Source: Lacinutrix neustonica (lineage in GTDB: Bacteria > Bacteroidota > Bacteroidia > Flavobacteriales > Flavobacteriaceae). From it: 64,000 nucleotides of DNA. Positions 4 to 58,495 of the stretch are shown here, one piece after another. The notes below the pieces were generated by a model. The model made no database searches. It was given only the letters and a program-made list of their open reading frames with translations, and was not told the origin of the DNA. Within the stretch, counting starts at the first letter, position 1; the number at the start of each line of letters is the position of its first letter. Position numbers and translations under genes: made by a program. The stretch is from the NCBI RefSeq assembly GCF_026625145.1, contig NZ_CP113088.1, forward strand, positions 310,001-374,000, read 5' to 3'.

Positions 4-1576
4 ATGAGCATAGTAATGAGTCAAACCAAAAAAAACCAAAATATAAAAATTGATATTAATACTGAGGCAACCGCCACTGTATTGCCATTCGATCAAAGCT
101 TTACATTTGAAAGCTTTAAAACGGAATACGATTCTATTTATTTCACCTATGAAATTAATCCCAATGTCAAGAAATCTTGGCATTATTTTAAAGGTGATTC
201 ATTCCCATTAAGGATTAAAAAATCGGTAGGTGTCGCCGTATTTCCTGAAGCCATCAGGCCTCTGCATCCCAATGTGCCTTACCAATTTAATTTTAGAGCC
301 TTTAAGAAAATTAATTTAAGTATTACCGATAAAGAAAGCTTAAAAGCTGAAACTTTCAACTTAGTGAAATTGAGGTTTTCAGACCTAGAGACTATTAGCG
401 CGACTAGTATTGCAGATTTTAAATCTGATTTGAAACAACTTATAAAAAGGTATGCGAAAGCAGATACTTTCTATAATTCTGATGGTATCTCAATGTCTAT
501 TAATTTACCCTTATACGAGTCTTATTTATTTCCCACAATAGACAGTTTGGGCAATAAGTCGGTTGAGATGAGTACTCTAAAGGATAACCTCTCACGGTCC
601 ATTAATCGGATCTTTGAAACCGTTGAAGAGGATACAAGTGTTATCACTACTGTTTTCAAGATAGTCAATGGAGATGTAAAACCTTCACAGAAATTAACAA
701 AGATACTAGCATCGCCAGTAAATGCTTCTGCTGTAGGAAACGGAACGGTGACCATAGAAAGCTTTGGCTCCTATTTCTTTGATGATTTTAAGTATAATTT
801 AGATGCCGTACTGAATAGAAAATATAAAATAGTTGGTACAACTTTAGAACCGAGAAGGTAAATTAGATAAAAACGCCATCATACTTATACAATCCTTTTT
901 TAATAAAATAGTCTCGAAAAACGTGACTAATGCTGAAAACAAAGCGATACTTAAAGCCTCTGAAGTCGTTCAAATTAAAAAAATAAGAGATGCCATTTCT
1001 AATGTATTAGAACAGTTAAAGAAAATTGAATTAAAAACTGCCGAAATAAATGCCTTAGCGTCTTCCATTCCAAATATATTAAATGATGCTTTTATAAGGG
1101 ATATTATTTCTATAGAAGAAGCAATTTATATGGACCTGACCGCGAAAAAAAACGCTTATATAGGTATAGATTTAGGGTTAGTATATGCCTTTTCTTTAGA
1201 AAGTGTTTTTATCTATGAAGGTACTAACTTCTATTTTAGACCCGTTAACCGAGAAGCCTTGTTTTCTGATTTAGAAGGTTGGGATGCGTTTTTTAAACGC
1301 TTTAGCATCTATTTAGGAATGGCACAACTTTTAACCGATAAGCCGGACAATTTTGAGCCTTTATTTGGTAAAAGCAGCTTACTTACTGGCGTTGGATGGC
1401 GGTTAAACAGAACGTTTAGAATTAATGCAGGCGCCTTAATGCATTATAAAACCAATCCAAACCCGTTAATAGATACTCAAACCTTTAAAGTCTCACCCAC
1501 CATATCTTTCTCTGTCGATTTAGATATAGCACAAGCGCTAGGTAGTGTAGGTAAAATATTAAACACAACACAATAA
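4..1576 (+). CDS. Unknown protein with outer-membrane-like C-terminal part
   Basis: I do not recognise a family. The N-terminal half is rich in beta-type sequence. A helical, lysine- and glutamate-rich stretch follows at about residues 300-370, then a C-terminal part with alternating aromatic and polar residues (GIDLGLVYAF, GVGWRLNRTF) that looks like outer-membrane beta strands. The frame breaks at 850-854, where CCGAG is read. Restoring CCGG joins the halves into one protein of about 523 residues. Reading is open to the window edge, so the true start may lie upstream. It heads a run of four same-strand genes. Function unknown. Confidence 0.6.
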
Positions 1577-1579
1577 ATT

Positions 1580-2016
1580 ATGTCAGCTAACTTATCATTT
1601 AACCGCATATCATACAGTCCAGTTAACAATATTTTACTATTTAACGCTTCGGCTTCGGTGAAAAAATATCTACTGAAAGTGTGAGAATAAAAATAGTTGT
1701 GAAAATGGACCCCAATCATTCGGGTCCTGTTAATGGTTTTATTACTTGTGCATTAAGGCATCCTAACCTTTTTACCTTTCAAGATGGAAAGAGTACAATA
1801 GTAATTCCTTTCAATAGTAAAACTAATGAATTCTCTGAAGAGTTTGGGACTAAGATAAAATTTAAAAATGCAAATGCTACTCCGTAACTTCCAGTTGTTA
1901 TTGATGTCAAAGTAAACGACGATAAAAATGGAGATATATACCCCGAAGATAGTACAAAAGGGAAATACTGGTGGGAACCGGTCATTGCATTAAGACATTT
2001 ACAAACTTTTATATAG
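1580..2016 (+). CDS. Unknown protein of about 145 residues
   Basis: It starts 3 bases after the previous stop, so the two are probably cotranscribed. Two defects interrupt it. TTCGGC at 1648-1653 fits TTCCGGC with one C lost, and an in-frame CCGTAA at 1882-1887 fits CCGGAA. With both restored the frame runs to the TAG at 2014-2016. The protein has a short motif resembling a repeated unit (ITCALRHPNLFTF and, near the end, VIALRHLQTFI). No signal peptide is visible. Function unknown. Confidence 0.5.
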
Positions 2017-2023
2017 CACGATA

Positions 2024-2755: not shown

Positions 2756-2773
2756 TATTTTAAATTTATTTTT

Positions 2774-4186: not shown

Positions 4187-4222
4187 TTGATTTAGGTCAA
4201 TACCATTGGTGTTGTAGTGCTT

Positions 4223-4230: not shown

Positions 4231-4259
4231 TTTGCATTAACAAATTATAAAATGAATAC

Positions 4260-5362
4260 ATGAGCAAACAACATTTATTAACCCCATATAACAAAAACAT
4301 TTCCCTAAATAACAGAGTCGTTATGGCACCCATGACGCGTAGTAGAGCAGATAATGCGGGCCACATACCAACAGATGATTTGCATGGTTTGTATTATGAG
4401 CAACGTGCATCTGCAGGTTTAATTATTACTGAAGGCTCGCAAGTGTCTACTCAAGCTGTAGGGTATGTAAATACTCCTGGTATTTATTCAGACGAGCAAG
4501 TTGAAGGGTGGAAAAAAGTAACCCAACGTGTACATGATAACGGTGGAAAAATCTTTATTCAACTATGGCATGTAGGACGGATGTCTCACCCGATTTTCAT
4601 AACGGGAAGTTACCATTATCGGCTTCAGCCATAAACCCAAACGCTAAATCATATACTCCAGAAGGCTTTAAAGATACGGTTACGCCCAAAGAAATGACTG
4701 TTGAAGAGATTAAAACAACGGTAAAAGATTTTCAAAAGGCAGCTGCAAATGCAGTAAAAGCAGGTTTTGATGGTGTGGAAATACACTCTTCTAATGGCTA
4801 TTTGTTTCATCAATTTTTTAATGGTTTATCTAATAAAAGAACCGATGCCTATGGCGGAAGCATTGAAAACAAAACCCGTTTCTTTTTCGAAGTCCTCGAC
4901 GCCATGAAAGAAGTCATTCCACAGGAAAAAATAGGTGCACGCTTTAATCCGTCGTTAGATGGTTTGTTTGGTATGACTATGAATGAAGACACTATCCCAA
5001 CCTTTGAATACCTTATAAAAAAGTTAAACAATTATAATCTTGCCTATGTGCATCTTTCTGAACCTTTTTCCGATGTTTCAGAAATACCTTATGCTGTTAC
5101 AGAAATCGCTAAGCATTTCCGGCCGTTGTATAACGGAACATTAATGATTAACACTGCGTTTGATCAAGAAAAAGGAAATAAAATTATCGAGGAAGGCTAT
5201 GCCGATTTAGTCGCCTACGGGAAGCCATACATCTCTAATCCGGATTTAGTAGAACGTTTTGAAAATAACTTTGATCTAGCAGAATGGGATGAAGATACAT
5301 TTTACACCACAGGAGCGAAAGGGTATATAGATTATCCAAAAGCGGCTAAAGAAACTGTTTAA
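4260..5362 (+). CDS. Old Yellow Enzyme family alkene reductase
   Basis: FMN-dependent NAD(P)H ene-reductase, 367 residues after correction. Visible family motifs are NRVVMAPMTRSRA at the N terminus, IFIQLWHVGRMSH, FDGVEIHSSNGYLFHQF (substrate histidine/asparagine pair, usually HxAN; here HSSN), and the C-terminal YGKPYISNPDLVERF FMN loop. One G is missing at 4591-4595 (CCCGAT for CCCGGAT, giving SHPDFHNG). Likely reduces electrophilic alkenes or takes part in stress detoxification. It is followed by an OsmC remnant and an alcohol dehydrogenase, a typical redox-stress grouping. Confidence 0.9.
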
Positions 5363-5804: not shown

Positions 5805-6862
5805 ATGGCAACGACAACAGTAAAAGCATATGGAGCAACAGCAGCAACAGCAGATTTAAAACCTTTAAACATACAAAGAAGAGCTGTAGGAACAGACGAC
5901 GTAAAAATTAATATTACCTATTGTGGTGTCTGTCATAGTGATATACATACCGTGAGAAACGACTGGAAAGGATCAACATATCCAGTAGTGCCAGGACACG
6001 AGATTATTGGTCGCGTAGTAGAAGTTGGTCATGGGGTCAATAACTACAAAGTAGGCGATGCAGTAGGTGTAGGGTGTATGGTAGATTCTTGCCAAACCTG
6101 CTCCTCTTGCGAGCAAGATTTAGAACAGTTTTGTGAAAAAGGAGCCACATTTACGTATAATAGTCCGAGATGAATATATTGAAGGCGCACAAACCTATGG
6201 AGGCTATTCAACATCAGTCGTTGTAGATGAAAAGTTTGTTCTACGTATTCCGGAACATTTAGATGCCGCGGCAACGGCTCCTTTATTATGTGCAGGTGTG
6301 ACAACTTGGTCGCCATTAAGCCACTGGAAAGTGAAAAAAGGAGACAAAGTAGGCGTGATTGGTTTGGGCGGCTTAGGACATATGGGCGTTAAATTTGCCT
6401 ATGCATTGGGGGCACATGTGGTCATGATTACAACATCACCGAGAAAAAGGACAAGATGCCAAACGTTTAGGCGCTCATGACGTTTTAGTCTCTAAAGATC
6501 AGGAGGACATGAAAAAACACCAAGGGAGTTTCGATTTTATTTTAAACACCATTCCGGTAGGTCATGAAATGGATCCCTATTTAGGGTTACTTAAAATTGA
6601 CGCAACCATGGTTTTAGTTGGTGCCGTAGAGCCTTTAAAGCCATTTCATGGTGGGAGTATTATTATGGGACGTAAGCGAATTGCGGGCTCTCTAATTGGT
6701 GGTATTAAAGAAACACAAGAGATGTTAGATTTTTGTGGAGAACATAATATTACGAGTGATATTGAGCTTATAGACATGCAAGATATAAACACAGCTTACG
6801 AGCGTATTACCAATAATGATGTTAAATATAGGTTTGTAATTGATATGAAATCTTTAAAATAA
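5805..6862 (+). CDS. Zinc-dependent alcohol dehydrogenase (YahK/cinnamyl alcohol dehydrogenase-like)
   Basis: Medium-chain NAD(P)-dependent dehydrogenase, 351 residues after correction. Catalytic zinc ligands are in CGVCHSDIH and PGHEIIGRV. The structural zinc cluster is CQTCSSCEQDLEQFC. The Rossmann motif is GVIGLGGLGHMGVKFA. Two inserted bases break it at 6165-6170 (CCGAGA for CCGGA, giving NSPDEY) and 6439-6443 (CCGAG for CCGG, giving TTSPEKGQD). Probably an aldehyde/alcohol detoxifying reductase. It starts 2 bases after the OsmC remnant, so the three genes form one operon. Confidence 0.9.
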
Positions 6863-7356: not shown

Positions 7357-10079
7357 ATGAACACCAAAATTACCCTCGCCAAAAGAACTTTAGTACTTTT
7401 GCTTCTTACCCTCTCAACCACACTCTCTGGTTACGCACAGCAAGTTATTAACGCCACATTACAACACGATGGAAAAACAAGGCAATACCGTCTTTATGTC
7501 CCACAAAGTTACGATGCTAGTAAACCAGCGCCTCTCATATTAAATTTTCATGGCTTTACAAACACGATTAATATTCAATATAACCAAAGTGCTTTTCAGC
7601 AATTGGCAGAAGACAATCAATTTATATTTGTCACTCCTCAAGGTTTAGGAGGATTTTTCTCCGGGTGGGCTATAAATAATAGTTTTGGTGGTAATGAGGA
7701 TGATTTAGGGTTTTCAGACGCTTTAATCAATAAAATTCAATCGGATTATAATATTAATGATAAACGTATTTACGCCACTGGATTTTCAAATGGTGGCTTT
7801 TTTAGTTATAGACTCGCCTGCGAATTAAGTTCAAGAATTGCAGCTGTGGCTTCGGTAGCGGGAAGTATGACTAGAAGTTGGATAGATACTAACCAATGTC
7901 AACCACAACACCCAACTGCGGTATTACAAATCACAGGGACTAATGATGGTACCATTTCTATAAACGGTAACGGGTCTAATAAACCTATAAAGGATGTAAT
8001 GGAATACTGGTCTGATTACAACAATGGGGATGCTACACCGAAGTTATTCAATTAGGAGGTGGGTCTACACGCGCTATTTGGGATAATGGTGATAATGGTG
8101 TCACGGCAGAATTTATTACAGTTCAAGGCAAAGGGCATAGCTGGAATGGAGGGAACGTAAACACTTCACAAGAAATTTGGAATTTCTTTTCTCGATTTGA
8201 TATTGATGGTGCATTAGATCCATCTCCTCCTACTGGTGAGATTTGTTCAGGAAATGTATCTATTTTCCCATATAGTGAGAGTTTTGAAGGCAATTTAGGT
8301 GCCTGGAAACAAGCTACTGGGGATGATTTAAACTGGACAATCAATTCAGGCGGCACACCTTCTACTGGTACTGGACCCAGCAGTGCTATTGATGGTACTT
8401 CGTATATCTATGTGGAAGCCTCAGGAAATGGAACAGGATATCCAACAAAAAGAGCGATTTTAAATTCGCCCTGTTTAGATTTAAGTAGTTTGTCAACGGC
8501 TAAATTTGGTTTTCAATATCATATGTTTGGTGCTACTATTGGGACATTAACTGTAGAAGCACGAACAGGAAATGCCGGCAATTGGGTGAGCCTTTTTAGT
8601 AAAACTGGTGCACAAGGTAGTGATTGGAATGCCGTAATTATTGATCTGGATGCTTATGCAGGAAATACAAGTGTACAATTAAGAATTAACACGGTTACCG
8701 GCAGTAATTACACAGGAGATGTTGCTATTGATGCCATTCAAATAGGTGCTAATATAGATGGCCCAGGGTCTACGGACTGTGTAGGGAACATTTCTAATTT
8801 CCCTAGCACAGAAAGTTTTGAAACTACCCTTGGAGATTGGTCTCAAGAGACCTCAGTTGATGATTTGGACTGGACCAGGAGATTCGGCGGCACACCCTCT
8901 TCTCGGAACAGGACCTAGTAGTGGCGCAGACGGTAACTTCTACCTTTATGTAGAAGCTTCAGGAGATGGCACAGGATTCCCAAATAAAAGAGCCATTTTA
9001 AATTCTCCATGCTTAGATTTTAGCGCGCTCGATACGCCCACGTTAGTGTTCCAATATCATATGCAGGGAACAGCCATAGAAACCTTAGATGTCGAAGCAA
9101 GAACCAACAACACTGGCGAATGGGTGCCTGTCTTTAATAGAACAGGAACACAAGGCGCCAATTGGAATCAAGCCAGTATAGCACTTTCTGCATTTGCTGG
9201 AGAAGCAAGCGTCCAATTGCGTTTTAATGCGGTTACCGGTTCGGGCAGTAGTGGATGGCAAAGTGATATCGCTATTGATGCGATACACATTCAAAATGAT
9301 ACTGTAACACCGCCTTCAACATGTGATTCTATTAATTTTGATGCTTTCCAACTCCTTTCTTTTTCTAATCAAGATGCAGCAGGGAATTATACAGCAAGTG
9401 GAACGACATTAGCTTTACAAAATAATACATGGAAATATATCCCTCTAAATTATACAGTAACTCCAAATACAGTGATCGCATTTGATTTTAGTAGTACCTC
9501 TGAAGGAGAAATTCATGGGCTTGGTTTTGAAAATGATAATACATTATCGTCCACTAGATATTTCAAAGTTCATGGAAATCAAAATTATGGAGTCACCAAC
9601 TATAATAACTATGTTAGTGGTACTAAAAACTATATCATTCCTGTAGGGGCATTCTATACTGGAAATATGGATCGATTAGTATTTATTAATGATAATGATG
9701 CAGGCTCGGAAATAACTCCACTTTTTCCAATGTCAAAATTTATGAAGGATCGTGTGGAGGTTCTGTAGTAGCACAAAAAGGGACTGATTATACTGGTGTA
9801 ACGCCAATGTATGGCACCGAAGATGAAGATGGGTTAACCATACTAATGACCCCTAATCCAACACGAGATCAATTCTCACTGAGTGTGAGCCATATGAACA
9901 GCAAAGCAATGACGGTGCGCATTTATTCCATTCTAGGACAGCAAAAACATGAAACAAAACTGCAGTCTGGTGTGACTACTTTTTCGGCCAACAGCTTAGG
10001 ACTTAGTTCCGGTATTTACGTTGTAAAAATTAAATCTGAAGGCAATAATGCGATTGTAAAAAGATTGATTGTAAAATAA
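7357..10079 (+). CDS. Secreted esterase with two MAM domains and T9SS sorting domain
   Basis: About 907 residues after correction. A signal peptide ends near GYAQ. Residues ~28-270 are an alpha/beta hydrolase of the polyhydroxybutyrate depolymerase/feruloyl esterase type (oxyanion region LILNFHGFT, nucleophile elbow ATGFSNGGFFSY, catalytic histidine in GKGHSWNGG). Two MAM-like domains follow (SFEGNLGAW, DDLNW, GPSS, YVEASGNGTG, IAIDAI), then a beta-sandwich domain and a C-terminal sorting domain (TPNPTRDQFSL to IVKRLIVK). Three CCGG defects, at 8038 (deletion), 8901 (insertion) and 9705 (deletion), split it. Likely a secreted polysaccharide-ester or polyester hydrolase. Confidence 0.85.
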
Positions 10080-10339: not shown

Positions 10340-11537
10340 ATGTTACAAAATGTTTTATTAGCACGAGAAATCTATGCATCAGAAGAACATCACATGATGC
10401 AACAAATGATTCAAGATTTCATCAACAATGAAATTATAGCCCACACCGATGAATGGGAAAAAAAGGGTATGGTTTCCCGAGAGATTTGGGAACGTACGGG
10501 CGCATTGGGTTTACTGTGTATCGACATGCCGGAACGCTATGGTGGTAGTGGTTTAGATTTTAGCTTTAGCGCATTATTTATTGAAGAATTGGCAAAAAAA
10601 GGCATCAGTGGTCCAGGGTTTTCATTACACTCAGATATTATTGCTCCATATTTATTAAAATATGGTACCGAGTCTCAAAAACAAAAATACCTTCCTTTAA
10701 TGGCTACAGGAAAAATGATTACGTCCTTAGGTATGACTGAGCCAAATTGTGGTAGTGATTTGAAAGCCATTAAAACAACGGCCGAGGATAAAGGAGACTA
10801 TTATTTGGTAAATGGGCAGAAAACCTTCATAACCAATGGGTATATGAGTGATATGTCTATAGTCGCAGTAAAAACCCAGTCTCGGCACCTCGAACGAAGG
10901 CGTGTCTTTGTTAATAATAGAGAGTCACTTTGAAGGTTTTGAAAAAGGAGTTCCTCTAAAAAAAATAGGTATGAAAGCACAAGATACCTGTGAATTATTT
11001 TTTGATAATGTCAAAGTTCCTAAAGAAAATCTATTAGGAGAAGAAGGTTTGGGTTTTAAAATCATGATGGCTGAATTGCCTAGGGAGCGTTTAACCGTAG
11101 CCATTAATGCTATTGGAGGAGCAGAGGGCGCCATAGAAAACACCATAGAATACACCTCCACAAGAACCGCTTTTAAGAAACCCATTGCTGGATTCCAAAA
11201 CACACAATTCAAACTTGCTGAGTGTGCGACGCAATTACAAATACATCAAGCATTTGTAGATCGCTGTACACGCTTATTATCACAGAATCAACTCACGGCA
11301 GAAAGTGCTTCGATGGCGAAGTTTTCTGCCACAGACATGCATGGTAAAGTGGTCGATGAGTGTCTACAATTATTTGGCGGCTATGGTTATATGTGGGAGT
11401 ACCCCATTGCCGTAATGTATGCCGATAATAGAGTGGCCGTAATTTATGCGGGCACCAATGAGATCATGAAAGTATTAATCGCTCGCGGGTTGTACAAGGA
11501 ATTGTTTGACAACATAAGAGCCATGAAAAAACAATAA
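10340..11537 (+). CDS. Acyl-CoA dehydrogenase
   Basis: FAD-dependent acyl-CoA dehydrogenase, 398 residues after correction, the usual length. Motifs are GLLCIDMPERYGG, SLGMTEPNCGSDL, FITNG, RLTVAINAIGGAEGA, and the C-terminal ECLQLFGGYGYMWEYPI with AVIYAGTNEIMK. The break at 10880-10885 (TCTCGG for TCCGG) restores KTQSGTSNEGVSLLIIE. Catalyses alpha,beta-dehydrogenation of acyl-CoA in fatty acid or branched-chain degradation. It stands alone and is preceded by a purine-rich GGAGGAG just before ATG. Confidence 0.92.
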
Positions 11538-11828: not shown

Positions 11829-12758
11829 ATGCAATATATGATATTGCCGCTTTTCTTATTTCTGCTCACCTGTGCCCCAGGATGATGATTTGGTAAAAAT
11901 CAATAACGCTTCTTCCAGTGAAACAGGGATCTTAGTTGATGGCATCAAGGGAGGCGTACAGCAAAATGATAATAGCTTTACAGCTTCCTCTAATTTGAGA
12001 AATATAGGAAGCTTTACAGGAGCGGGTACCAATGGGGAAATCATAGGGTTTAATAGTGAACGTCCTGTGGCCATTACAACTCCAGTAAACTGGACCGCCA
12101 ATCGTGATGAACCCGATTTGAATTTTAACAATATGATACAGATTCCAGTAAAAGTTTGGATAGTAAAAGGCAATTTTGCGACACAACGCGCACTTGCCAT
12201 CAGTCATTGTATTTATACGGCCAATGTTTGGAATACCGAAAGAATGGGCGTGCGGTTTAGTCCTTTTGAAATTGTAGATGCTACAGGCGACCCGGATGCC
12301 CCAACGTATTATAATTATACCTGTGCGCTTCAATCAGGGATTGAAAATGATATAGGTAAGGATGCCAATAAAATTAATATTTATTACGTGGGGACTGTAG
12401 ATGGAGGAAGTTCCGGAGGGCAGGCGTGTTCTATTGGTAGTGATTTTGTAGCTATGGGAGAAAACACACTTTCAGATTTGCTCGTACATGAATTAGGGCA
12501 TGATTTTGGATTGTTTCATACCAATAGTAATGCCAATTTCAATCAGACAGGAATCATGCATTCTGCTAGCAGCACTAGGGAATTTATTACTGAAGGGCAG
12601 CTTTTTCGGGCGCATTTGTTATCTAATTCGGCTATAAATAGCGTCTACAATGCAAGACCAGGAGCCCCTACCGAGGTTGTGGGCATAATGCATCTTCTGC
12701 AACTTGTTTAAGTATTGATAAGCGTATTTGGACAGATGGGGCTTTTCCTGCAAATTAA
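11829..12758 (+). CDS. Metzincin-like zinc metalloprotease lipoprotein
   Basis: About 309 residues after correction. The N terminus is a lipoprotein signal (MQYMILPLFLFLLTC). The zinc site is LLVHELGHDFGLFH, the HExxHxxGxxH motif of metzincins, followed by a plausible Met-turn (NQTGIMH). CCAGG at 11877-11881 (for CCGG) and CCGAGG at 12671 (for CCGGAGG) break the frame. With both restored the C terminus reads on to a stop at 12756 and loses the false ending. Likely a surface-anchored protease. It precedes a second secreted protein on the same strand. Confidence 0.8.
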
Positions 12759-14392: not shown

Positions 14393-15342
14393 TTAGGATA
14401 AGGCCGTCTTTACAAGGCTGCTTTCAGGTGCTTTTACCATTTCTCTCCTTATTTGCTTTATGGTCAGGGTACTGCCATCATGGCTCCAGCCAGGCGGACC
14501 AAAAACATACATAAACTTATGATACCAATTGCTTGACTTCTTGATGTCGTCCCAAATGTTTTTGTATTCGTGGGTTAAAATAACATACAGGTTATACGAA
14601 TCGGAGGTACAGAAACCCCGTATTCTATAGCGATGGAATCGTCTAATTCTTTCCAAGTTCCAAAAAGCCTATCGAAAATATTGAGAATCCCCCCATGGTT
14701 TTTGTCCATATATTCAATATTTCGCGCGTGGTGTACTTGGTGCATGGTGTGGGTATTTATAAATTTTTCTATAAACCCCATTTTTTTTATGTACTGCGTG
14801 TGGAGTTGAAATTGCCATATGGCCTCAATTCCCATACAAACAACTAGCATTTCCGGTGGAAAACCAATGATTACAATCCAAACATAAAAAAAAGGCTTAT
14901 AAAAAATAGTGAACCAACCGTTGCGTACAGCAGTTCCTAAGTTAAAATTGTCTGAAGAATGATGAACAATATGTGCTGCCCATAAAAAGCGGATCATATG
15001 ATTTTGTCGATGGAACCAGTAATAAGAATAATCATCTAAAAGCATACAAATCAACCACAGGTACCAGGCATATCCAAAAGACTCATAGCCCATTATATTT
15101 GTACGAACGCCATCTAACATAGGATTGAATAGTTCATAAGCAAAATTAAAAACCAAGACTACGGCTACTGTTTTCACGAGCGCACCGACTATTACAGACC
15201 CAATACCAAGCGATAGACTTGATAACAAATCTTTCCATTTATAGAGTTGTTTGTTATCAAAAGCTTTGCTGTAGGTAAGCTCTATTGCAATAAAGCCTAA
15301 AAAACAAGGAATTGCATAAACCAACGGGTTTGTAAAATCCAT
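14393..15342 (-). CDS. Fatty acid hydroxylase / sterol desaturase family protein
   Basis: 316 residues after correction. Membrane-bound di-iron enzyme with the histidine clusters of the family: WFHRQNH, AHIVHHSS and HTMHQVHHARN. Several transmembrane segments lie at the N terminus. ATCGGAGG at 14600-14606 lacks one C of CCGG. Restoring it gives SVPPDSYNLYVILTHEYKNIW and joins the C-terminal 80 residues. Substrate not predictable. Confidence 0.85.
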
Positions 15343-16839: not shown

Positions 16840-17845
16840 ATGAACACCAAACACACCCGATACTCCATCTTGGACCTTGCTTTAGTTTCTAAAGACCATA
16901 CGCTTAAAGAAACCTATAACAATGCGCTTGCATTGGCGCAACGGGCTGAAAGCTTTGGCTACACCGGATATTGGTTGGCAGAACACCACAATGCCGTTAA
17001 CATAGCGAGTAGTGCAACGTCTGTATTAATTGGGTATGTTGCCCAAGGCACAACCACACTTCGCATTGGTTCTCGGAGGAATCATGCTACCCAACCACTC
17101 CCCATTACTTGTGGCGGAACAATTTGGTACCTTAGCCGCTTTATATCCCGATCGCATTGATCTCGGTTTAGGGAGAGCACCAGGAACCGACAGGGAGACC
17201 GCACAAGCCATACGTTCGGATTTTATGCAAGCCGCCCATTCCTTTCCTAAGGAATTAGAAAAAATAGAAACCTACTTTTCTGTCGAAAATGCAGGTGCTA
17301 AAGTGCGTGCCACCGTAGCCGAGGGTGTTAAAGTCCCTATTTATATTTTAGGCTCTAGTACAGATAGTGCGCATTTAGCTGCAAAAAAAGGATTGCCTTA
17401 TGCCTTTGCGAGTCACTTTGCAACCACGCATTTATGGGAAGCACTTGACATTTACCGTAAAGAATTTCAACCCTCAAAACACTTAGAGAAACCTTATGTA
17501 ATCACTGGAGTAAATATTATAATAGCAGATACCGATGAAGAAGCCGAACGCCTATCCACTTCTTTAATTCGTATGATTGTTGGAATATTTACAGGTAAAC
17601 GGGATTATGTACAACCTCCAACAGCTATGACAGATGAGTTTAGGGACTTGATGCAACACCCACAAGTACATCAAATGCTAAAATATTCTTTTATTGGTAG
17701 TAAAGCCACAGTTAAGGCCCAAGTAAAAGCGTTTATAGCGAAAACTAATGCCGATGAACTTATCGCGGTCACCAATATTTACGAGGTAAACGACAGAATA
17801 CGTTCTTACGAATTATTCTCGGAAATCATGACAGAGTTAAATTAA
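16840..17845 (+). CDS. Luciferase-like (LLM class) flavin-dependent oxidoreductase
   Basis: 334 residues after correction. Bacterial-luciferase-type TIM barrel of the YhbW subgroup: RAESFGYTGYWLAEHHN, then RIGSGGIMLPNHSPL and AEQFGTLAALYPDRIDLGLGRAPG. TCTCGGAGG at 17071-17079 carries an extra T. CCGG restores exactly the family's GSGG loop, which is good evidence that a 1-base insertion is the defect. Uses reduced flavin; substrate unknown. Confidence 0.9.
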
Positions 17846-17988: not shown

Positions 17989-19898
17989 TCAATGAGGTTG
18001 TAAGCCAAAAAGTGTACGTAAAGCAATAACATGCTTTTGTAACACTTTTCCCGAAACACCAATTTCATTAAGAAAAGCTTGCAGTCTTTTTATTCCCATG
18101 CGAGTATAGTTTGTAGCTGGAGTTATTTTATTCAAATAGAGATGTGCTGCACAATGGGGGCAATAAGGTTTTGTAGCTCCAATAATAAATATTTTACTAT
18201 TGGCTGTAATTAACTGCCGCTCGGCATGGTGAGTTCTTGAAGCCTTATTTGCCTTTTTAATCCAAGGCACGAGATCTTCCCAAACATTATTTTGCCACCA
18301 TGGTTTTCTTGGCACATACTTTCCTGAGCTAGACACCCAAAGCCGTACTAAACCTATTTCACGACTAACCACGCCGGACGGGTTGGTTACCAATCCGGGC
18401 GCGAGGGACTCTATAGAAGCTCCAACGCCAGCGGTTATAGACCGAAACGCGCGTTCTGCAAGATTTGCTTCCATTAATTGTTTTAGACTTAAAGCTCTAT
18501 CTCTTACAGCTTCACTCGCCCAGGCTTTCATATAGCCTTCCGGGTCTGTCGCCGGATTTGAGGCTTTAGTAGGTGCACCTCCTGGCCTAGACGGGACCGT
18601 TTCCGGAGTATACATTGTTAATCTGCGTCCTCCTAGAGGATATCTTGGGGGCCCTGTATTAGGTGGTATAGGTGATACCAGCTGCGGAGGTGGCTTTCTA
18701 TACAGGGGTAAGCGTCTTCCGCCTGGTGGATAACGTGATGGTGATGGATTTGGAGTTGCTGGTGCTTCAGGAACCTTAAATCGCTCTCTAATAGTTGATG
18801 CTGCTTTTCCAGCAATCTTAGCCGCACCCATTGAAACGATGGTGATTAGAAAATCTATACCCAGTTTTGCTATGGTCTGTGCCAATAATTCTACACCTTG
18901 CCTAAACTCAATTTCATTTTCTGCATTGGCAATAGCAGCAAGAGCCCGCCCTAAATCTATAACATGGGTACCAAAAGTAGCAATAAGTAAAACGATACCT
19001 GCTCCAGTAGCTATCCATGCTAAAGGGCCACCAGATTGTAACAATAAAAAGGCGGCAAAAATGGCTGAAAAAAGTGCGATATTGGCTGGCTGTAATAATT
19101 TATTGAGTTCTTCCTTAATATCATTAGTGAGAATATCACTATTTTTTAATTCACTAAAGGCTAATAAAACTTTATCTAACCCATCCATATGCGCATAAGC
19201 ATCTTTACTAGTGCGATGCGCTAATTCGTGCTGTGCGATCATGCGCTGTAACCTATCATATTCCTGTTGATATTGCGCTCTATCGCTTAAATCTCCTAAA
19301 GGAATAAAAACAACACCATGCTCTCGCGCAATGGTTTCCGATTTCGTTGACTCCCATAATGCTGTCTTTCAGTTTCATTTTCTGTCCATGCTTGATTATG
19401 TGCAGGCCGGCTTAATCGTCTTCTTTCCGCATTGTAATGACCTTGATTTAATAAGTCTCCTTGGGGACCTTCAGCGTGGTTGTTTTGTATAGCGAGTGCG
19501 TCAAGTTCTTGCTCTCTTCTTGTTAATATGGCCTGTAAAGAGTGCTTTACCTGTGGGTCGTGTTTTTCTAAATCCTTAGACGCTTCAAGAATTTGACGCA
19601 AATCATCTTCGGTAAGCTCACCAATTATGTCCGGAGGGCCTAGTTTTCTCCCATTGTGTGGTATGGTGTTATCTTGGGCAACAACATGTCTACCCACGGA
19701 CAATCGTTCTTTTAACTGTGTTTTACGTAAGGTTTTAAGTCTATTATTTAGTTTTTGCCAATAGGCCTCATGTTCTAACTTATCTTGATTAGATGCGAAT
19801 TCGTTATAAAAAAGGAGTTCCTTAATGCTTTTGATTTCTGCCACTAAGTCCACTTCATTCAACGCTTCAATTTCTGAATCTGTTTTAAAATTTCCCAT
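17989..19898 (-). CDS. Polymorphic-toxin-like protein with C-terminal deaminase domain
   Basis: 636 residues after correction. The N-terminal ~200 residues are charged and helical. An AQHELAH (HExxH) motif lies near residue 220, two hydrophobic segments near 265-310, and then a proline-rich linker carrying two YPxGGRRL repeats. The C terminus has HHAERQL and KPYCPHC, the HAE and CxxC zinc signature of deaminase-fold toxins. One C is missing at 19338-19342 (CCGAT for CCGGAT on the plus strand). Probably a secreted nucleic-acid or nucleotide deaminase effector. No immunity gene is obvious beside it. It starts 12 bases after the capsid-like gene. Confidence 0.7.
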
Positions 19899-19909: not shown

Positions 19910-20685
19910 TTAGGGTAGCGTAAAGGGATCTTGGGTAGGCACTTGAAGGAGGCGAGCCACACTTTGTGGTTCCGGAACCAGTAATGAATAGATGCCATAT
20001 ACAGCAATGCCTGAAGAGGCTGAACTCACTTCGCCCTGAGCATCCATAGTAGCCATAGTATTAACTTCATCGGTATGAAGTCCAAAATGATCCCCTCCAA
20101 TATGAAGGATGCGAATACCACTAGGACCAAATAACTTCAAGGCCCATGCTTCCGTAAGGCTTGCACTGGCTCCACCTGGTTCTCGTACTCTGCCAGTAAG
20201 GACTGGTAAACCGTGAAAGTGTAATTGAATTTTTTGAGTGAGCTCACAAAAGAAAAACTCGGATTAAGCCCTTTATCTTCGATTTCCTTAATGAGTCGCC
20301 AGCGTGCTCTGCTAGACATCACAAAGAGATCGGCGCCAGTACCCAACCCATCATCTCCAGGGCAGACTCTAGCTTCAAGTTCTGATAAGCCGCCAATCAT
20401 ACCTCTACCCGTATCATATTGTACCTCTTGAGCGCTTGTTGTAGAAAGATAGAATGGCAGACCCGAAAACTCAGCGTCATCATCACTAGATGGATTGGAG
20501 TGAAATATGGCTTCGCTTAATGCTCTAAGCACGCCCACCTTTGCCAATCCTACCTGTACATCAAGCACATTATCTGTGTTATTACCGCTCATCAATTCAT
20601 CACAGCGCACAACAGCGCCAATTTTTTTAAATCGCGTGCCTACAGATTCTAATTCTTGTCCAAAGGCTATGGTGGCTTTGCACAT
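19910..20685 (-). CDS. Possible HK97-like phage capsid protein, 5'-truncated
   Basis: 258 residues after one correction at 20152 (CCGTAA for CCGGTAA on the plus strand). The pattern recalls HK97-fold major capsid proteins: a helical stretch ending LRALSEAIFHSN, then EFSGLPFYL, then ADLFVMSSRARWRLIKEI, and a C-terminal AVYGIYSLLVPEPQSVARL. The assignment rests on pattern only. The first ~20 residues run into the truncated M1 peptidase on the other strand, so the natural N terminus is probably lost. It could be a capsid remnant or an encapsulin-type shell. Confidence 0.4.
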
Positions 20686-38899: not shown

Positions 38900-40859
38900 A
38901 TGAGGGTATTATCAAAGTCAAGATTCAAACTTGGGCTAGAATGTCCGAACAAACTTTTTTACACTAGTAACAAAGAATATGCTAATGCTAAAAAGGAAGA
39001 CACTTTTTTAGAAGCATTAGCTCAAGGCGGATTTCAAGTTGAAGAACTTGCAAGGTTGCATTTTCCTGGAGGAACACTTATAGACGAAGATACTTGGGAG
39101 TATAAAAAAGCATGGAATATGACCCAAATGCTTTTAAAACAAGAGAATGTAATAATTTATGAAGCTGCTTTTCTATTTGAAGGATTATATATAAAAACAG
39201 ATATTTTAGTAAAAAAGGGTAATATAATTGATTTGATTGAAGTGAAATCTAAATCATTTTTACCAGATGATGAATTTTTATTCATTGGCAAAAGAGGTGG
39301 AATGGTTGCAGGTTGGAAACCCTACTTATTTGATGTCGCATTTCAAAAGCATGTAATCCAATCTTGTTATCCACATTGGAAAATAAACTCTTTTATAATG
39401 ATGGCTGATAAATCTAAAACTGCGAGTGTTGATGGACTAAATCAACTATTTAGGATTACAAAAAAGGGAAATAATCGTACTGGTATTATTAGTAAAGTTA
39501 ATGCTATAGAGGAAATTGGCAATTCAGTTCTAGGTAGAAAAAATGTTACGGAAATTGTAGATGGTATTGAATCTAATAAGCATAAATATAATGAGAATTT
39601 GACCTTTCAAGAGTCTATTTTAATATTCAAAGAGTTATATGAAAATGAAACCTACGCAAATTGGCCTACTTCTTTTAGTGCTTGCAAGAAGTGCGAATTT
39701 AAATTAACTCAAAGTAATGATGTGAAATTGAAGTCTGGTTTCAAGGAGTGTTTTAGTAAACAACATAAATGGGGAGAAAAAGAGTTTAACCAACCAAACA
39801 TATTTGACATATACGATTTTAGAAAAGGGAATAAATTATTTCAGGATGGCATTGTTTTTAAAAAGGATTTGACAGTAGATAATATTGGATTAAAAGTAGA
39901 AGCTGAAAAACTTACAACATCAAATAGACAATGGTTGCAAATTGAAAAAGAAATAAATAATGATTCTTCCTACTATGTTGACAAAGATGGTTTAAAAAAT
40001 GAATTAGAAAAATGGATATTCCCTTTGCATTTTATTGATTTTGAAACGAGTATGTCTGCTTTACCATTTAATAAAGGGCTCAAACCATATGAACAAGTTG
40101 CTTTTCAATTTTCTCATCACATTTATCATGAAAACGGAATTGTAGAACATGCAAATCAGTATATAAATAATACGATAAGAGAGTTTCCGAATTTTAAATT
40201 TGTTAGAGCCTTAAGAGATGCTTTAATTAATTATGAGGGAACTATTTTTAGATACTCGCATCATGAAAATACAATTTTAAACGCTATTTATATTCAATTA
40301 AAAGATTCTGATGAACCTGATAAAGAAGACTTAATGAGTTTTATCCAAACCATATCACATTCTAAACGTGGTAGTGCAATTGAATGGTCTCGGAGAAAGA
40401 GATATGGTGGATTTATGGGATTTAGAGAAGTGTTACTATTATAACCCTCTTACTAAAGGTTCAAATTCACTAAAAGAAGTTTTACCAGCTTCAATTAATT
40501 CAAGTCCTTATTTATTAAAAAAGTATTCTCAATCAATTGGTGAAATAAATCTAACTAGCATGAATTTTTCTGATAATCATGTATGGCTAAAACAAGAGAA
40601 TGGAAACGTATTAAACCCTTATAAATTATTGCCTCCAGTTTTTGAGGATTGGACAGAAGATGCATTAGTAAACACACTTTCCGAAATTGAAGGAATAGCA
40701 GATGGAGGAGCGGCATTGACAACATACAGTAAAATGCAATATACTGATATGACTCAAGCAGAGATTGATGAATTGAGTATAGCTTTATTCAAGTATTGTG
40801 AGTTAGATACTCTCGCTATGGTTATGGTTTATGAACACTTTAAGGAAATTACTTTATAA
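38900..40859 (+). CDS. DUF2779-type RecB-like nuclease with RNase H-like domain
   Basis: 652 residues after correction. N-terminal LSKSRFKLGLECPNKLFY is typical of the family. A PD-(D/E)xK nuclease core follows (KTDILVKKGNIIDLIEVKSKS, D...ExK). A cysteine pair SACKKCEFK lies near residue 265. The C-terminal exonuclease-like domain has HFIDFETSMSALPF and FRYSHHENTILN (DxE and H). TCTCGG at 40388-40393 has an extra T; CCGG gives EWSGERDMVDLWDLEKCYYY. Its stop overlaps the WYL start. Probably acts on foreign or recombination DNA. Confidence 0.8.
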
Positions 40860-41867
40860 TGGCAGATAACCAAAAAGCGTTAAAAAGATATAGGATCATC
40901 TTAAAGGTATTGAGTAGAGAAGGAAGTTTTACTTCTAAACACATTTATCATTCCTGTTTAAATAGCGGAATAGATGTTGGATATCGAACCGTTCAAAAAG
41001 ATCCGGAAGACTTAAGGGATGACGAGACTATTTTTGGAAGAAATTTAGGAATTAAATATGATGAAAAAGAAAAGAAGTGGTATAGCACAGGAATACCAGC
41101 GGAGATTTTCACTGCTTTAGAACTAAAAGATGGAGAAATAGATGCGCTGCTATTTTATGCAAAAACAATTAATCAATATCAAGACTATCCTGTTTTTAGA
41201 GATATATCTCAAGCCATGAAGAAGGTTATAGACAGCTCAAACATTTCTGAAGAGCGAAAAAAATTATTTAGATTAAAAAATTTAATTGAGCCGAGAAACA
41301 CATCCACCAATTTCAGGAATAGAATTTATTGTTGATTTGCTAAAAGCAATTTCATCAAGGAATATTATCGAAGTGGAATATGAAAGATTTGGTAAAGAAT
41401 CTAAAACACATAGAGTCAAACCAATATTATTGAAAGTAGATAAATTGATGTGGTACTTGATAGCCATTAATATTAAGTATGATAGTTATATAACATTCGC
41501 ATTAGACAGAGTTAAAAATGTTTTATCAACTGAAGATTTTTTTGAGGAAATAAAATTTAACAGTGCGGAGTATTTTAAATATTCATTTGGTATCACTGTT
41601 TCTGAAGATGAACCCGTTGAAGTAACAATTTCATTTGATGCCGAACAAGGTCACTACCTAAAAACACTACCAATTCATCCAACTCAAGAAATCCTGAAGG
41701 ATACAAAAAAGGAACTAATTTTAAAAGTTACAGTTAAACCATCATATGAATTCTTTTCAAAAATCTATAGTTATTGCAGTCATGCAAGGGTAATCTCACC
41801 TAATGAAATTAAAGATATATTTCGAAATAATTTTAATAAAGCTAAAGAAAATTACAAAATATCATAA
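40859..41867 (+). CDS. WYL-domain transcriptional regulator
   Basis: 335 residues after correction. N-terminal winged helix (RYRIILKVLSREGSFTSKHIY, quoted in part) and a WYL core (LMWYLIAINIK, FALDRVKNV). A C-terminal WCX-like part (SFDAEQGHYLKTLPIHPTQE) completes it. CCGAG at 41291-41295 has an inserted A; CCGG gives LIEPETHPPISG. WYL proteins such as BrxR and CapW repress phage-defence operons, so it may control the nuclease and the ubiquitin-like genes downstream. Confidence 0.88.
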
Positions 41868-45097: not shown

Positions 45098-46470
45098 CTA
45101 TATCGCACTAATAGTAATACTTCCATCAAACCCAGCAGAATATAGCTGATTGTTTAACACAATAGTATCTTGTATAAAATTATCGGTTTGTACAATTTTC
45201 CGTTTTAGTTTTGTTGTAGGATTATAAGCCATTATTTTGTTGTCTTCACCACAGGTTATAATTTCATTTTTATGATACTTAATAGATCTAATAATATCTT
45301 TATGTAAGTGTATTGTTTTTGCTGTATTGCCTTTTAAAGAAAAGTAAATAACGTTACCGTTTTTTGTTCCTATAAAAATAGAGTTTGTTGTATTACAAAG
45401 GCTGAAAAGTGCTTCATTTTGTTTGTAAAGACATTTAGTAGATGCTGCATTTAAATTAGTCAAAACCATAGATCCATCTTCACTACAAGTAACTATAGTA
45501 TCATTATCTAATAGTATAACATCCCAAATCCAATTATTATGCACCTTAATTGTTTTTTGTAATATTAGTTCATAACTAAAAACATAAACACTACCACTTG
45601 TACCAACAGCTATGATATGCTTTTTATTAGAATTAGCTATAATACTTATAATCATTTCATTTAGAGCTATAGATGCTAAAATAGTACCGAATAATTCCAT
45701 TTTTTTAATGTAAAATCTCTAGAGCAAGAAACAAATTCATCGCTATTCAATCGTGCTATTTTTAATACAGATTTAGTATGAATTTTAATTGAATTGATAA
45801 GCCTTAACTCATTATCCCATAGTTTAATAGTAGTATCTCTTCCGCAGCTAAAAAAATGATTCTTATCACTACTTAATAAACTCCATATATAACCTTTATG
45901 ATGTTTAAACTCCATTTGTCTATTCACAAAAATATCTGAGCGCAAAATATATTTGTTGCCTAAAGTAATTTTAGCACCTTTATGCCAAATTTTATGGTCA
46001 AAAATTACTAGTTTTCCTTTTTGAGGTATAATTGTTTTACAAGGTTTCTCATCATATTTTGAAATAAAAAATTCTGTATTTCCGCTGGAAAAACTTTCCG
46101 GAGCATTTAAGTATAATAAGAAAGTATATTTAGACTCATGGTTATCATTTGGGTAATGTACACCATCTTGGTGTTTAGAAAATAATTGATCTTTCTGATA
46201 TCTACAAAACCGTAATCGGTTATTTAATCCAACAAAATCATTAAAATAATTTTCATTAAATTCATTTAATACCCCAAACAACTCTTGCGATAGGTCATCA
46301 TTATCTTCAACAAGTCTATCATTATTTCTATAATAATCAGGATAATGACTAATAGCACTTTCAAATTGATTTATCCTGTTATTTAATAAACAATCACATT
46401 GATCTATTGAAATAAAATTTTCAATTTCTATTATTGGTAAGCCCTCTATATATTCAATATTTATAGACAT
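45098..46470 (-). CDS. 2-oxoglutarate/Fe(II) dioxygenase fused to a WD40 propeller
   Basis: 457 residues after correction. N-terminal ~190 residues are a prolyl-4-hydroxylase-like domain. The iron ligands are in FSKHQDG (HxD) and IWHKGAK (H), and the 2-oxoglutarate base is in KYILRSDIF. The remainder carries about six WD40-like repeats (KGYIWSLLSSDKN, TTIKLWDNE, DFTLKKWNYSG, IIAVGTSGSVYVFS). One base is missing at 45686 (ACCGAAT for ACCGGAAT on the plus strand). The propeller may present protein substrates to the hydroxylase. Confidence 0.8.
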
Positions 46471-47141: not shown

Positions 47142-47734
47142 TTACTTTTTAACCAAGGACTTACGAATACGGCTGAGAGATTCGGAGTTATTCCTAAATA
47201 AGATGAAATGTAATGATGTGGTATTTGATTAAGTAGGCTAGGGTAGAGTTTTAAAAATATTTCATATCGTTCTGATGCGCTTTGATATTGCAAAGATTCT
47301 ATGCGTTGTATAGCATATAAGTAGTTTTTTTCGGCCATCAGCCTGCCAAAAGTGTTTAATTCTAAGCTTGTTTTGTACAATTCTTTCCAATCAGAATACG
47401 CTATAGAAATTAATTTCCCTGGCACAATACATTCTATAAATTCGGCACTTGGTTTTTCAGTTAATAAACTAACAAAAGAGGCTACAAGAGGATTTCTTTG
47501 TTCATAATTAAAATAGCTGGTAATTTCTTTTCCATCATTTAACTGGTAAACTCTATAAATACCAGATAAAACAAATTTTAAAGATTTAGAAATTTGATTT
47601 TGCTTAAGAATAAAATCTCCTTTAATATATTTATCCACAGATAACTTTGAGGTCATTTTAATGACATCAGCTTCCTGTAGTTTTACAGTATCAAATATAA
47701 AATCAAATAATTTTTGATATTGGTTTATTTCCAT
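47142..47734 (-). CDS. Crp/Fnr family regulator
   Basis: 197 residues after correction. Effector barrel FILKQNQISKSLKFVLSGIYRVY, then HYISSYLGITPESLSRIRKSLVKK, the Bacteroidota HTH. The family motif TPESLSRIR appears only when TTCGGA at 47181-47186 is read as TTCCGGA, and the stop then falls at 47142. It lies 51 bases upstream of the HD hydrolase gene and may head that operon. Confidence 0.85.
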
Positions 47735-51607: not shown

Positions 51608-52035
51608 TTATCGAGTGAATTTACCAAAGTAACCAGTTGCCCATTTCAAACCGCTAGTTTGCCCTTTTCCGTTAGGAGTAACGACCATACCAACCTCTTC
51701 TAAAACAACAACCTTTGTGTTGATATTCATTAATACAGGAAACATTTTTTCATGACCAGAGTTAGAGTATTTTATAGTACACATCATCGGTTGAAACTTA
51801 TTTCCCTTTTTACTTTCAACATGATTTTTACTCTTGTGGTACGGAGACACCGTAGCAGTTATTAAACCCTTACCACGTGATTTATTCCACGCATTTATAA
51901 TAGTTGAACCTATAAAATTTCCTTTTTGAATAGTTTTATAAGTTGCTCCGAACGTTTTGGACCATTGCCATTATTTAACGCTTGAAGTTGTTCCTTTGTT
52001 AAACGGACAGCTCCGTTATTTTGATTTTGACTCAT
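51608..52035 (-). CDS. Unknown protein of the element
   Basis: 142 residues after one correction at 51948-51952 (CCGAA for CCGGAA on the plus strand; restores KRSGATYKTIQKGNFIGST). N terminus MSQNQNNGAVRLTKEQLQAL. The middle is basic (INAWNKSRGKGL), the end beta-rich (TNSGHEKMFPV-type). Likely a nucleoprotein or minor virion protein. Confidence 0.5.
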
Positions 52036-53985: not shown

Positions 53986-54043
53986 AATATAAGAATGTTA
54001 CGTCATGTTCATTAGGGAGGGTTAAAACAATGACAAATTAGAA

Positions 54044-54301: not shown

Positions 54302-54304
54302 AAT

Positions 54305-55771: not shown

Positions 55772-55802
55772 ATTTGTCTAAAGACTTGATTATACGCTAT
55801 TC

Positions 55803-55830
55803 TTGTAATATAATTAATATTATGTCAAAT
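55803..55830. other. dif-like site at the right edge of the element
   Basis: The right arm TTATGTCAAAT (55820-55830) resembles the XerD arm TTATGTTAAAT of bacterial dif. A 6-base centre TTAATA and a left arm TTGTAATATAA complete a 28-bp layout. Phages without an integrase often integrate at dif through host XerCD. No clean repeat of all 28 bases is visible at the other end. Confidence 0.35.
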
Positions 55831-55890
55831 AGGATTTTTTTAAACCCGTTCTCTTTGTTTTTATTTGGTATGATAAAATATACGATATCC

Positions 55891-56681
55891 TTAAAACGGC
55901 ATCTTATTACCCGAGCTTGGTGTTTGATTTAAATACTGTTTAAACTGGGCGTCGCAAAACATTAAACTTTGCTCATAAATTTCATCCAGTTTATGAGCAT
56001 CCAAAATTTTATAGTCTTTTAAATAATTATGGTCAAAAACCATATCACAATGGTCAAATTTCGCATGAGCATTATTATAACTATTAATGGTCATTAAGCG
56101 ATTCATAAGATGTTGTGTGTTTTCCAATTGCAAATCTTGTGGGGCCAATTTGGGCATTACATAACTGCCCAGCAACACATCACACTGTCCTATTAAGGGT
56201 TCTACTGGAAAATTGTTAGATAATCCAGCGTCTACAATGGTTTTACCCTCATATTCCATAGGCTTAAAAAATGTAGATAACGCACAGGCGGCTTTTAACA
56301 CCGTTCTTAAATCACCGGAATTGTGATAAATGGACTCCCCTTGTATTAAATCAAACGTAGTGATGTACAGTTGATTGCTGGGGAATTCCTCCGGAATGTA
56401 CTTATCAAAAGAAAGGTATTGCTCTTGCGCGTCTAACATCCCCTGTTGCTTCAACACCTTATAATCGATAAAAAACCAAGGCTCTTTTCTTATAATATCA
56501 AGCATGGCTTCGGGGCCATGTCCCAGTTGTAAAGGGCCCCTATACAGGCGCCAGCACTCGTGCCTGATATTAAGTTTGGCCGATAGCCATGGGCTTCTAT
56601 GGTTTTTATTAAGGCCGGATGAGCAACCCCTAAAGCGCCACCACCCGAAAGTACTAATCCTATCTTTTTCATATTATCCAA
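55891..56681 (-). CDS. Patatin-like phospholipase
   Basis: 263 residues after correction. GLVLSGGGALG is the oxyanion loop, ISGTSAGACIG the GxSxG nucleophile and DAGLSNNFP the catalytic aspartate (DG/A motif). One base is missing at 56509-56514 (TTCGGGG for TTCCGGGG on the plus strand), restoring NWDMAPEAMLDIIRKEPW. Likely hydrolyses acyl lipids at the membrane. It overlaps or abuts the acyl-CoA dehydrogenase stop, so a lipid-degradation operon is likely. Confidence 0.88.
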
Positions 56682-58495
56682 GGGTATAACGTGTTTCAGC
56701 GATAAAATAATTGGCTACCGCTCTTTTGTGTTTTTTAATATTACGATGGGGTACTGTTGAATAGGCCGCTAAGGCGTTTTTAATCTGTACCGCATCCTCA
56801 GGGTCATCAAAAGAAAACATGAGCGCTTTTACACTAGCCTCCATCCTACTGCTGGTTTCAAAAGCTAACGCATGTAACACATCCATATGTATCGCTTTGG
56901 CCTCCAGATTAGGATCGTTTTTTAATTTCCTCACCCGTAGCACCGCACTTTCTAAGGCATAAATTTCAATGAGTAAATTGGCAATATGGGTTACAATTTC
57001 TTGTTCTTCTTCTAACTCTTGTAAGAATTTCTGCGCGGTGACGCCAGCTACCACTAAGGTTAATGATTTTAAATGGGCAACGATGGTTAAAAGCTCACTC
57101 CAGGGGCTACTGCCGTAGTCTCCCCCTTCGTTTTTCTCTAACCAATCAAGGCATGCCGTTAAGGGAGTAAACAAATCGAGTTCTCCTTTAAGCCCTTTTT
57201 TAAGGAATTCTTTAACGATTAAGAGTCTGTTAATCTCATTAGTGCCTTCAAAAATACGACTGATGCGCACGCTTCGGTACAAGCGTTCCATAGGTGCTTC
57301 CGTCGAATAGCCCATGCCGCCATATACTTGAAGTCCTTCATCTACAATATAATCCTGAACTTCAGAACCATACACCTTGGCAATAGCACATTCTATACTA
57401 AAATCTTTTAAAGCTTCGGTTTTAGACCTCATGTAAGGGCGCCCTTGTGCGACCTTATCGTGTCGTAACAGATCTATAGCGTTGGCCGTACGATAGACCA
57501 AGGCTTCTAATGCAAAAATCTTAATGTACATACTGGGCTAATTTCTCTTTTATAGCGCCAAAATCACTTATCGATTGTCCAAATTGCTCACGGGCTATAG
57601 CATAATTCACCGCGTAATTGGCTGTCATTTTACTAATGCCAAGCGCAGAAACACCCAACTTTATACGCCCCGTATTTAAGGTGTTTAAAGCGATTTTAAA
57701 GCCTTGATTTCGTTCGCCAAGTAAATTCTCCTTCGGGACCAGCACCTTGTCAAAAAACAAAGGGGTGGTAGACCAACCCGATAAGCCCATCTTCTGCTCC
57801 TCTGCCCCTACAGTGGTGCCACCAAACGCCTTTTCTACAACAAATGCCGAGAGGTTCTTGTCGTCTTCAATCTTAGCAAAAACGATGTAGAGCTGTGCTA
57901 AACCGCCATTAGAAATCCAAGCTTTTTGGCCAGTAATCACATAATTACCCTCGGCAGTCATGGTCGCCCGTGTTTTTCCCGAATTGGCATCAGAGCCTGC
58001 ATTGGGTTCTGTTAGGCAAAACGCAGAGAGTAAGTCCCCAGTGATCATGTGTGGTAAGTACTTCTCTTTAATATAAGAACTCCCATAGTGTACAATGGGT
58101 GAAATCCCAATACTCGTTTGCAAACCTATTGCACCACCAAAACTGTAACTTTTTCCCATTTCTTCTACAAAATGCAAGGTGTTGGTTAATGACAAATCAG
58201 AGCCACCCAGCGTTTCAGGCACCTCCAACCCCAGCAAACCTAAAGTACCACATTGCTTCAATAATTGAGGTGTTAATTGCATCCCCTCCGGGGTTTCTAA
58301 CACCTCTAAACGAGAGAAAATTTCATTCGATAGAAATTGACGCACCGTCTCTTGTATCATTTGTGCTTCTTCAGAGCGGTATTCCACACTGTATAAAGTC
58401 TCGGTATTGGTGTTTTGTAAAAGGAACTCGCCTCCTTTGGTCTGTGGTACTGCTATTTCCATGGCTGTTTTATAGGGCAACTTGTAATTAGGCAT
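56674..58495 (-). CDS. Acyl-CoA dehydrogenase, long form (~606 residues)
   Basis: Motifs LGLEVPETLGGSDL, SAFCLTEPNAGSDA, GQKAWISNGG and GRIKLGVSALG in the dehydrogenase core. GLQVYGGMGYSTEAPMERLYR and RIFEGTNEINR follow. The extra ~180 residues at the C terminus match very-long-chain-type enzymes. CCCAGTATG, read on the minus strand at 57531-57537, needs one base fewer. CCCGGATG fits and gives LARMYIKIFALEALVYRTA. Controlled by the divergent TetR gene. Confidence 0.9.

Follow-up and report, generated by a model that had tools for sequence, protein, structure and literature searches.

Frame breaks in the genome of Lacinutrix neustonica are likely consensus errors at the word CCAGA

In the public genome of Lacinutrix neustonica (G000, a single contig of 3,905,328 bases), many genes appear to be broken by the gain or loss of bases. 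An earlier note on one stretch of 64,000 nucleotides (G000:C1:310001-374000, hereafter the window) had listed 31 such breaks, 16 of the insertion type and 15 of the loss type, as well as four CCGTAA stops for which it gave no coordinates, and had attributed them to consensus errors at a modified CCGG, nearly always CCGGA. Our analysis supports that the breaks are tied to a short motif and look like consensus errors, but points to another word. We consider it likely that native nanopore sequencing gave rise to the broken genes through consensus errors at CCAGA, a probably methylated word; both the platform and the base modification are what we infer. In the literature listings searched, neither the strain nor its sequencing platform was found. 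Four outcomes are seen at CCAGA: the A is lost (CCGA), a G is gained before the A (CCGAGA), the A is read as G (CCGGA), or AG is read as GT (CCGTA).

For comparisons beyond the window we used 21 stretches of the L. neustonica genome, 464 kb in total, and 20 stretches (400 kb) of a congener, G002. Judged from the RlmI-like protein of the window, which shows 81-85% identity to eight Lacinutrix hits, the genome is that of a Lacinutrix-type marine flavobacterium. The G+C content is 35.4% in the sampled stretches, 31.4% in G002 and 30.0% in eight Lacinutrix loci, and C-rich words, for example GCCCC, are far commoner in the L. neustonica sample than in the Lacinutrix comparison sets.

The reading frame alone leaves the true word undecided, because each indel word can be restored to five letters in two ways. 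Word counts, aligned relatives and conserved residues decide for CCAGA. When the 5-mers of the 464 kb are ranked by z-score, with expected counts from a Markov model of the genome itself, CCAGA stands at the depleted extreme (154 seen, 440 expected) and CCGGA at the enriched extreme (585 seen, 309 expected). Compared with G002, CCAGA is 5.5 times rarer (0.33 versus 1.84 per kb) and CCGGA is 9 times denser (1.26 versus 0.14 per kb), and the per-stretch densities of these two words do not overlap between the 21 own and the 20 congener stretches. The insertion word CCGAGA occurs at 0.44 per kb versus 0.03 in G002. No such depletion relative to G002 was found for CCAGG, CCAGC or CCAGT. Likewise, GCCAGA occurs 27 times per Mb in L. 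neustonica, while the next lowest value is 68 among the 17 rows calculated from a family-wide table of 397 genomes.

A longer motif was rejected, as none of 16 flanking contexts keeps its expected number of CCAGA words; the contexts range from ACCAGAG (21 versus 31 expected) to CCCAGAA (0 versus 31), with an expectation taken from one congener and not corrected for G+C. Five bases thus look sufficient as a motif, and we tentatively read the strong differences among flanking contexts as an effect of the basecaller.

Alignment with relatives shows how the assembly reads conserved CCAGA words. We collected 47 of them, each shared by four or more of the Lacinutrix sequences that cover the site and by no fewer than 75% of these. 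At these sites the L. neustonica assembly reads CCAGA 12 times, CCGA 10, CCGGA nine, CCGAGA four, CCGTA three and other words nine times; the 26 product words divide into 14 indels and 12 substitutions, and the called word starts with CCG at 27 of the 35 altered sites. Indels are present at 14 of the 47 sites, versus none at 596 sites of 16 control words (Fisher p 1.7e-17), and conserved CCAGG is kept at 18 of 22 sites, also with no indel. In about 45 kb, relatives share 36 frame-breaking gaps against the L. neustonica sequence, and most relatives carry CCAGA at 15 of them. Conversely, opposite 47 CCGGA places of L. neustonica, CCAGA is the commonest word of the relatives at 20. In the DNA alignment all 20 differences are silent (10 serine, 10 proline codons), because the sampling of conserved CCAGA favours words with their A at a silent third position; in a stricter re-run this held for all 46 conserved words (35 proline, 11 serine). 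Alignments of CCGAT or CCGAA with CAGAT or CAGAA, at one time a candidate for an extra error class, were dropped as presumably the ordinary exchange of CGA and AGA arginine codons.

Because the sites from the DNA alignment were all silent, a test at the protein level was needed. For this, 83.5 kb were aligned to the genes of relatives, one gene per place; a first table, which had drawn on every open frame in the relatives including those on the antisense strand, was replaced because its tryptophan-to-TGA rows were judged spurious. With codon boundaries marked by hyphens, xCC-GGA stands opposite arginine of the relatives at 6 of 16 places versus 1 of 453 among the remaining GGA codons, and xxT-CCG-G stands opposite leucine at 2 of 10 versus 0 of 67. 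Where a conserved tryptophan follows TC, the L. neustonica codons are CGG, CGG and AGG (TGG at none of three), whereas elsewhere TGG is present at 114 of 120. Three in-frame stops lie opposite a conserved residue, and two of these are CCG-TAA opposite glutamate, so that the class of CCGTAA stops proposed earlier is real, although both lie outside the window. One in-frame TGA opposite a conserved tryptophan, at L143:7711 (+), is away from CCAGA-type words.

The breaks were also searched for blindly with a gene-model hidden Markov model (HMM). In the 464 kb it gave 188 direct same-strand frame switches, in 181 of which each flanking run reached 150 b; after discarding the seven with a shorter run and 53 that resembled gene junctions, 128 in-gene switches were left. 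The same scan of G002 gave 52 switches, none with short runs and 43 junction-like, leaving nine in 400 kb. Every sampled L. neustonica stretch (21 of 21) holds in-gene switches, between 1 and 20 apiece. Within 25 b of the 128 switches, CCGA/TCGG is found at 99 (13.4% at random coding positions) and CCGAGA/TCTCGG at 50 (0.5% at random). Homopolymers are not enriched (16 of 128; 11.6% at random), and homopolymer errors were rejected as the cause of the breaks. The junction filter also removed true breaks, since 15 of the 53 discarded switches hold CCGAGA/TCTCGG.

In the window itself, 29 of the 31 listed positions bear one of a few words on one strand, and the two others, 57531 and 37190, bear none of them on either strand. 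CCGAGA is present at 12 of the 16 insertion-type positions and CCGA at 13 of the 15 loss-type positions; rarer words are CCAGGA (two), CCGTGA (one) and CCGTA (one). A direct same-strand switch of the HMM lies within 120 b of 20 of the 31 positions. When the HMM states were read 150 b to each side, a same-strand frame change was seen at 24, some of which could be ordinary neighbouring genes, and none was seen at 11877, 17071, 1648, 12671, 14600, 51948 and 56509. The features are collected in the table. Of the insertion words named in the earlier note, CCGAGA/TCTCGG held up, whereas CCAGG and CCGTG (11877, 37078 and 30220) have little support in the relatives: none of the 20 CCAGGA and 14 CCGTGA places of L. 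neustonica that at least four relatives cover has CCAGA as the leading word among these relatives, and one CCGTGA place has it in 43% of the relatives.

Table. Break words and one substituted word in the window (positions counted from the first letter of the window)
Feature	Positions	Strand	Remark
CCGAGA, frame change	850..855	+	HMM switch 3 b off
CCGA (TCGG on +), claimed break	1649..1652	-	frame change without HMM support
CCGA, frame change	4590..4593	+	HMM/word check
CCGAGA, frame change	6165..6170	+	HMM/word check
CCGAGA, frame change	6439..6444	+	HMM/word check
CCGA, frame change	8038..8041	+	HMM/word check
CCGAGA (TCTCGG on +), frame change	8901..8906	-	HMM/word check
CCGA (TCGG on +), frame change	9706..9709	-	HMM/word check
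CCGAGA (TCTCGG on +), frame change	10880..10885	-	HMM/word check
CCAGGA, claimed break	11877..11882	+	word class without support from relatives
CCGA, claimed break	12671..12674	+	HMM shows no frame change
CCGA (TCGG on +), claimed break	14601..14604	-	without HMM support
CCGAGA (TCTCGG on +), claimed break	17071..17076	-	HMM: non-coding on upstream side
CCGA, frame change	19338..19341	+	HMM/word check
CCGTA, frame change	20152..20156	+	HMM switch 94 b off
CCGAGA (TCTCGG on +), frame change	23295..23300	-	HMM/word check
CCGAGA (TCTCGG on +), frame change	24877..24882	-	HMM/word check
CCGA (TCGG on +), frame change	26523..26526	-	HMM/word check
CCGAGA (TCTCGG on +), frame change	28640..28645	-	HMM/word check
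CCGTGA, frame change	30220..30225	+	word class weakly supported
CCGA, frame change	35285..35288	+	HMM/word check
CCGAGA, frame change	35698..35703	+	HMM/word check
CCAGGA, frame change	37078..37083	+	word class without support from relatives
CCGAGA (TCTCGG on +), frame change	40388..40393	-	HMM/word check
CCGAGA, frame change	41291..41296	+	HMM/word check
CCGA, frame change	45687..45690	+	HMM/word check
CCGA (TCGG on +), frame change	47182..47185	-	no direct HMM switch; states differ
CCGA, claimed break	51948..51951	+	without HMM support
CCGA (TCGG on +), claimed break	56510..56513	-	without HMM support
CCGGA in RlmI-like gene	62988..62992	+	commonest word of relatives CCAGA; silent change

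These results bear on two explanations that differ from ours in what the breaks are or where they arise. According to the earlier one, a modified CCGG(A) causes the indels and the CCGGA words of the assembly are correct. CCGGA does restore the frame at the indel words, exactly as CCAGA does; however, it is not enriched near the in-gene switches (CCGGA/TCCGG at 4 of 128; 5.2% at random), the relatives carry CCAGA at the indel sites, CCAGA is depleted against the congener, and missense changes fall on conserved tryptophan and arginine. We consider this explanation very improbable and have rejected the idea that the true word is CCGG or CCGGA. CCGGA is largely itself a product of the A-to-G error, and the words at 4142, 10529 and 41003, which had been taken for intact, are therefore more likely miscalls than spared sites. 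The other explanation is that the breaks are real, either because the genes have decayed or because the cell tolerates the frameshifts by recoding, and the open frames of the assembly are indeed broken. Yet essential genes are affected too: the open frame of rplB has 149 amino acids versus 275-280 in all 12 relatives, and that of rpoB 1143 versus 1274-1279. True pseudogenes should have varied break words and should spare essential genes, and neither was found. Instead, the errors are concentrated in one short motif that shows both gain and loss of bases, the control words are free of indels, the switches are spread over the whole genome sample, and the congener has very few of them. Because rplB and rpoB are also broken, we regard the breaks as an artefact of the assembly; in the living cell these genes are very probably unbroken, and real decay is hardly credible.

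Errors that keep to one short word and do not involve homopolymers are known to be typical where a nanopore basecaller meets a base modification it does not expect. We searched the L. neustonica genome for five Pfam methyltransferase families and detected one C5 methyltransferase, one small N6/N4 methylase, HsdM, one type IIG enzyme and one weak match, but no D12 methyltransferase. The C5 enzyme (G000:C1:2245228-2246706, in L001 and L161, minus strand) has 493 amino acids with an N-terminal helix-turn-helix followed by the methylase, and matches PF00145 and TIGR00675. The adjoining gene is of the HNH_2 family, and its HNH end is similar to PDB 6yex. Of 13 Lacinutrix genomes, L. neustonica alone has the C5 methyltransferase at full length, and three of the other 12 give partial matches; elsewhere, proteins up to 93% identical occur, some of them named Flavobacteriales (among the best 120 of 7998 matches). 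The modified base could be 5-methylcytosine (5mC) at the second C of CCAGA, set by this C5 methyltransferase, which with the adjoining putative HNH_2 endonuclease would form a predicted type II restriction-modification pair; for the 5mC and its enzyme, the odds seem to us about even. A basecaller that has met 5mC mostly before G would then call the methylated CCA as CCG, and the CCG start of most altered words would agree with a caller inclined to place G behind 5mC. Somewhat more tentatively, at a little less than an even chance, we propose that the errors reveal an undescribed CCAGA-specific 5mC pair of C5 methyltransferase and HNH protein, together with a general failure of basecallers trained on CpG, in which 5mC before A is read as C-G.

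Alternatively, the errors at CCAGA could arise from 6-methyladenine on the A, or from N4-methylcytosine, with the small N6/N4 methylase, the type IIG enzyme or another methyltransferase as the source. The miscalled base is an A, and confusion of A and G is a common error linked to methylation (PMC11610573, PMC12016153). The type IIG restriction enzyme-methyltransferase (1014 amino acids, L134:193-3237, near G000:C1:851333) and the N6/N4 methylase (228 amino acids, L132:1456-2142) both have open frames. The nearest solved structures of the latter are the methyltransferases 8urk, 9c3u and MboIIA, and it has no obvious endonuclease neighbour. However, no result ties either enzyme to CCAGA, and the only CCAGA methyltransferase that we found in print is a C5 enzyme. 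This alternative appears unlikely to us, though clearly less so than the two discussed above. The type I restriction-modification locus (R fragment, HsdM and HsdS) is at L140:5078-9962 (G000:C1:50078-54962), and a TCTCGG word divides its specificity gene, HsdS, into two frames that overlap. Type I enzymes with HsdM recognize two-part sites as a rule, which speaks against HsdM as the source.

Several observations weigh against methylated CCAGA, and against 5mC in particular. No product word lies within 25 b of 20 of the 128 in-gene switches, and at 21 of the 36 frame-breaking gaps the majority of relatives do not have CCAGA, although six of these 21 are at CCGAGA or CCGTGA words and some of the other 15 may be intergenic. 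The 154 CCAGA words that persist in the 464 kb also have to be accounted for. Evolution could also give the 20 silent CCGGA/CCAGA differences, the missense evidence comes from few sites, and xxC-CGG-A stands opposite glutamine at none of three places. As only one C5 enzyme was detected and the complementary word TCTGG lacks an A, possibly just one of the two strands is marked. In that case reads from the unmarked strand would be correct and ought to prevail in many places, whereas the assembly has altered words at most conserved sites. Furthermore, other methyltransferases are present (type IIG in L134, the small N6/N4 enzyme in L132 and HsdM in L140), and the 5mC errors of Neisseria meningitidis R10 data were mostly C/G to T/A and not A to G (PMC12506013).

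If errors at CCAGA are indeed the cause, the public genome of the species likely carries several thousand of them. As a rough estimate, 3.9 Mb would hold about 7,200 CCAGA sites at the G002 density and about 4,000 errors, given that 26 of 47 conserved sites show one of the four product words; the estimate rests on these 47 sites and is not corrected for G+C (35.4% versus 31.4% in G002). Of the 26 product words, 12 are substitutions, which leave the length unchanged, so that most of these would escape a check of reading frames, and many base changes that break no gene are likely hidden beside the broken genes. False features would include pseudogenes, the excess of TCCGGA and part of the residue changes, and the low completeness estimate of the genome (84.46) may share this cause. 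Restoring reading frames is not enough to identify the motif and can lead to a wrong one, whereas a depleted and an enriched word together indicate the right one. If the CCAGA-specific 5mC pair proposed above is real, the errors amount to an accidental methylome, and such word pairs could give methyltransferase specificities from public long-read assemblies without raw signal.

Our literature search for CCAGA as a methylation motif gave relevant reports from N. meningitidis only, and none for TCTGG. In that species a cytosine methyltransferase of type II makes m5C at CCAGA, as cleavage with MspJI confirmed (PMC7973814); another paper reports a CCAGR motif and suggests enzymes for CCAGA plus CCWGG (PMC7046676). 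This NEIS0771 system has the five-base word in common with the putative system of L. neustonica, for which there is a single candidate C5 methyltransferase with an HNH_2 gene as its partner. Artefacts of the kind described here are already known. In one benchmark, Dcm motifs accounted for about 70% of the consensus errors of nanopore basecallers (PMC6591954). Those errors likewise gather at a single short methylated word and make up most of the errors; that word, CCAGG/CCTGG, differs from CCAGA by one base, but in L. neustonica, a flavobacterium, the word is asymmetric and CCAGG is spared. Strain-specific A/G and C/T confusions at modified motifs, as given in two further reports (PMC11610573, PMC12016153), resemble our case in the confusion of A and G at the strain's own methylation motif. 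These are mostly substitutions or ambiguous positions at motifs like RACG and CRAY, whereas in L. neustonica indels are as common as substitutions (14 versus 12).

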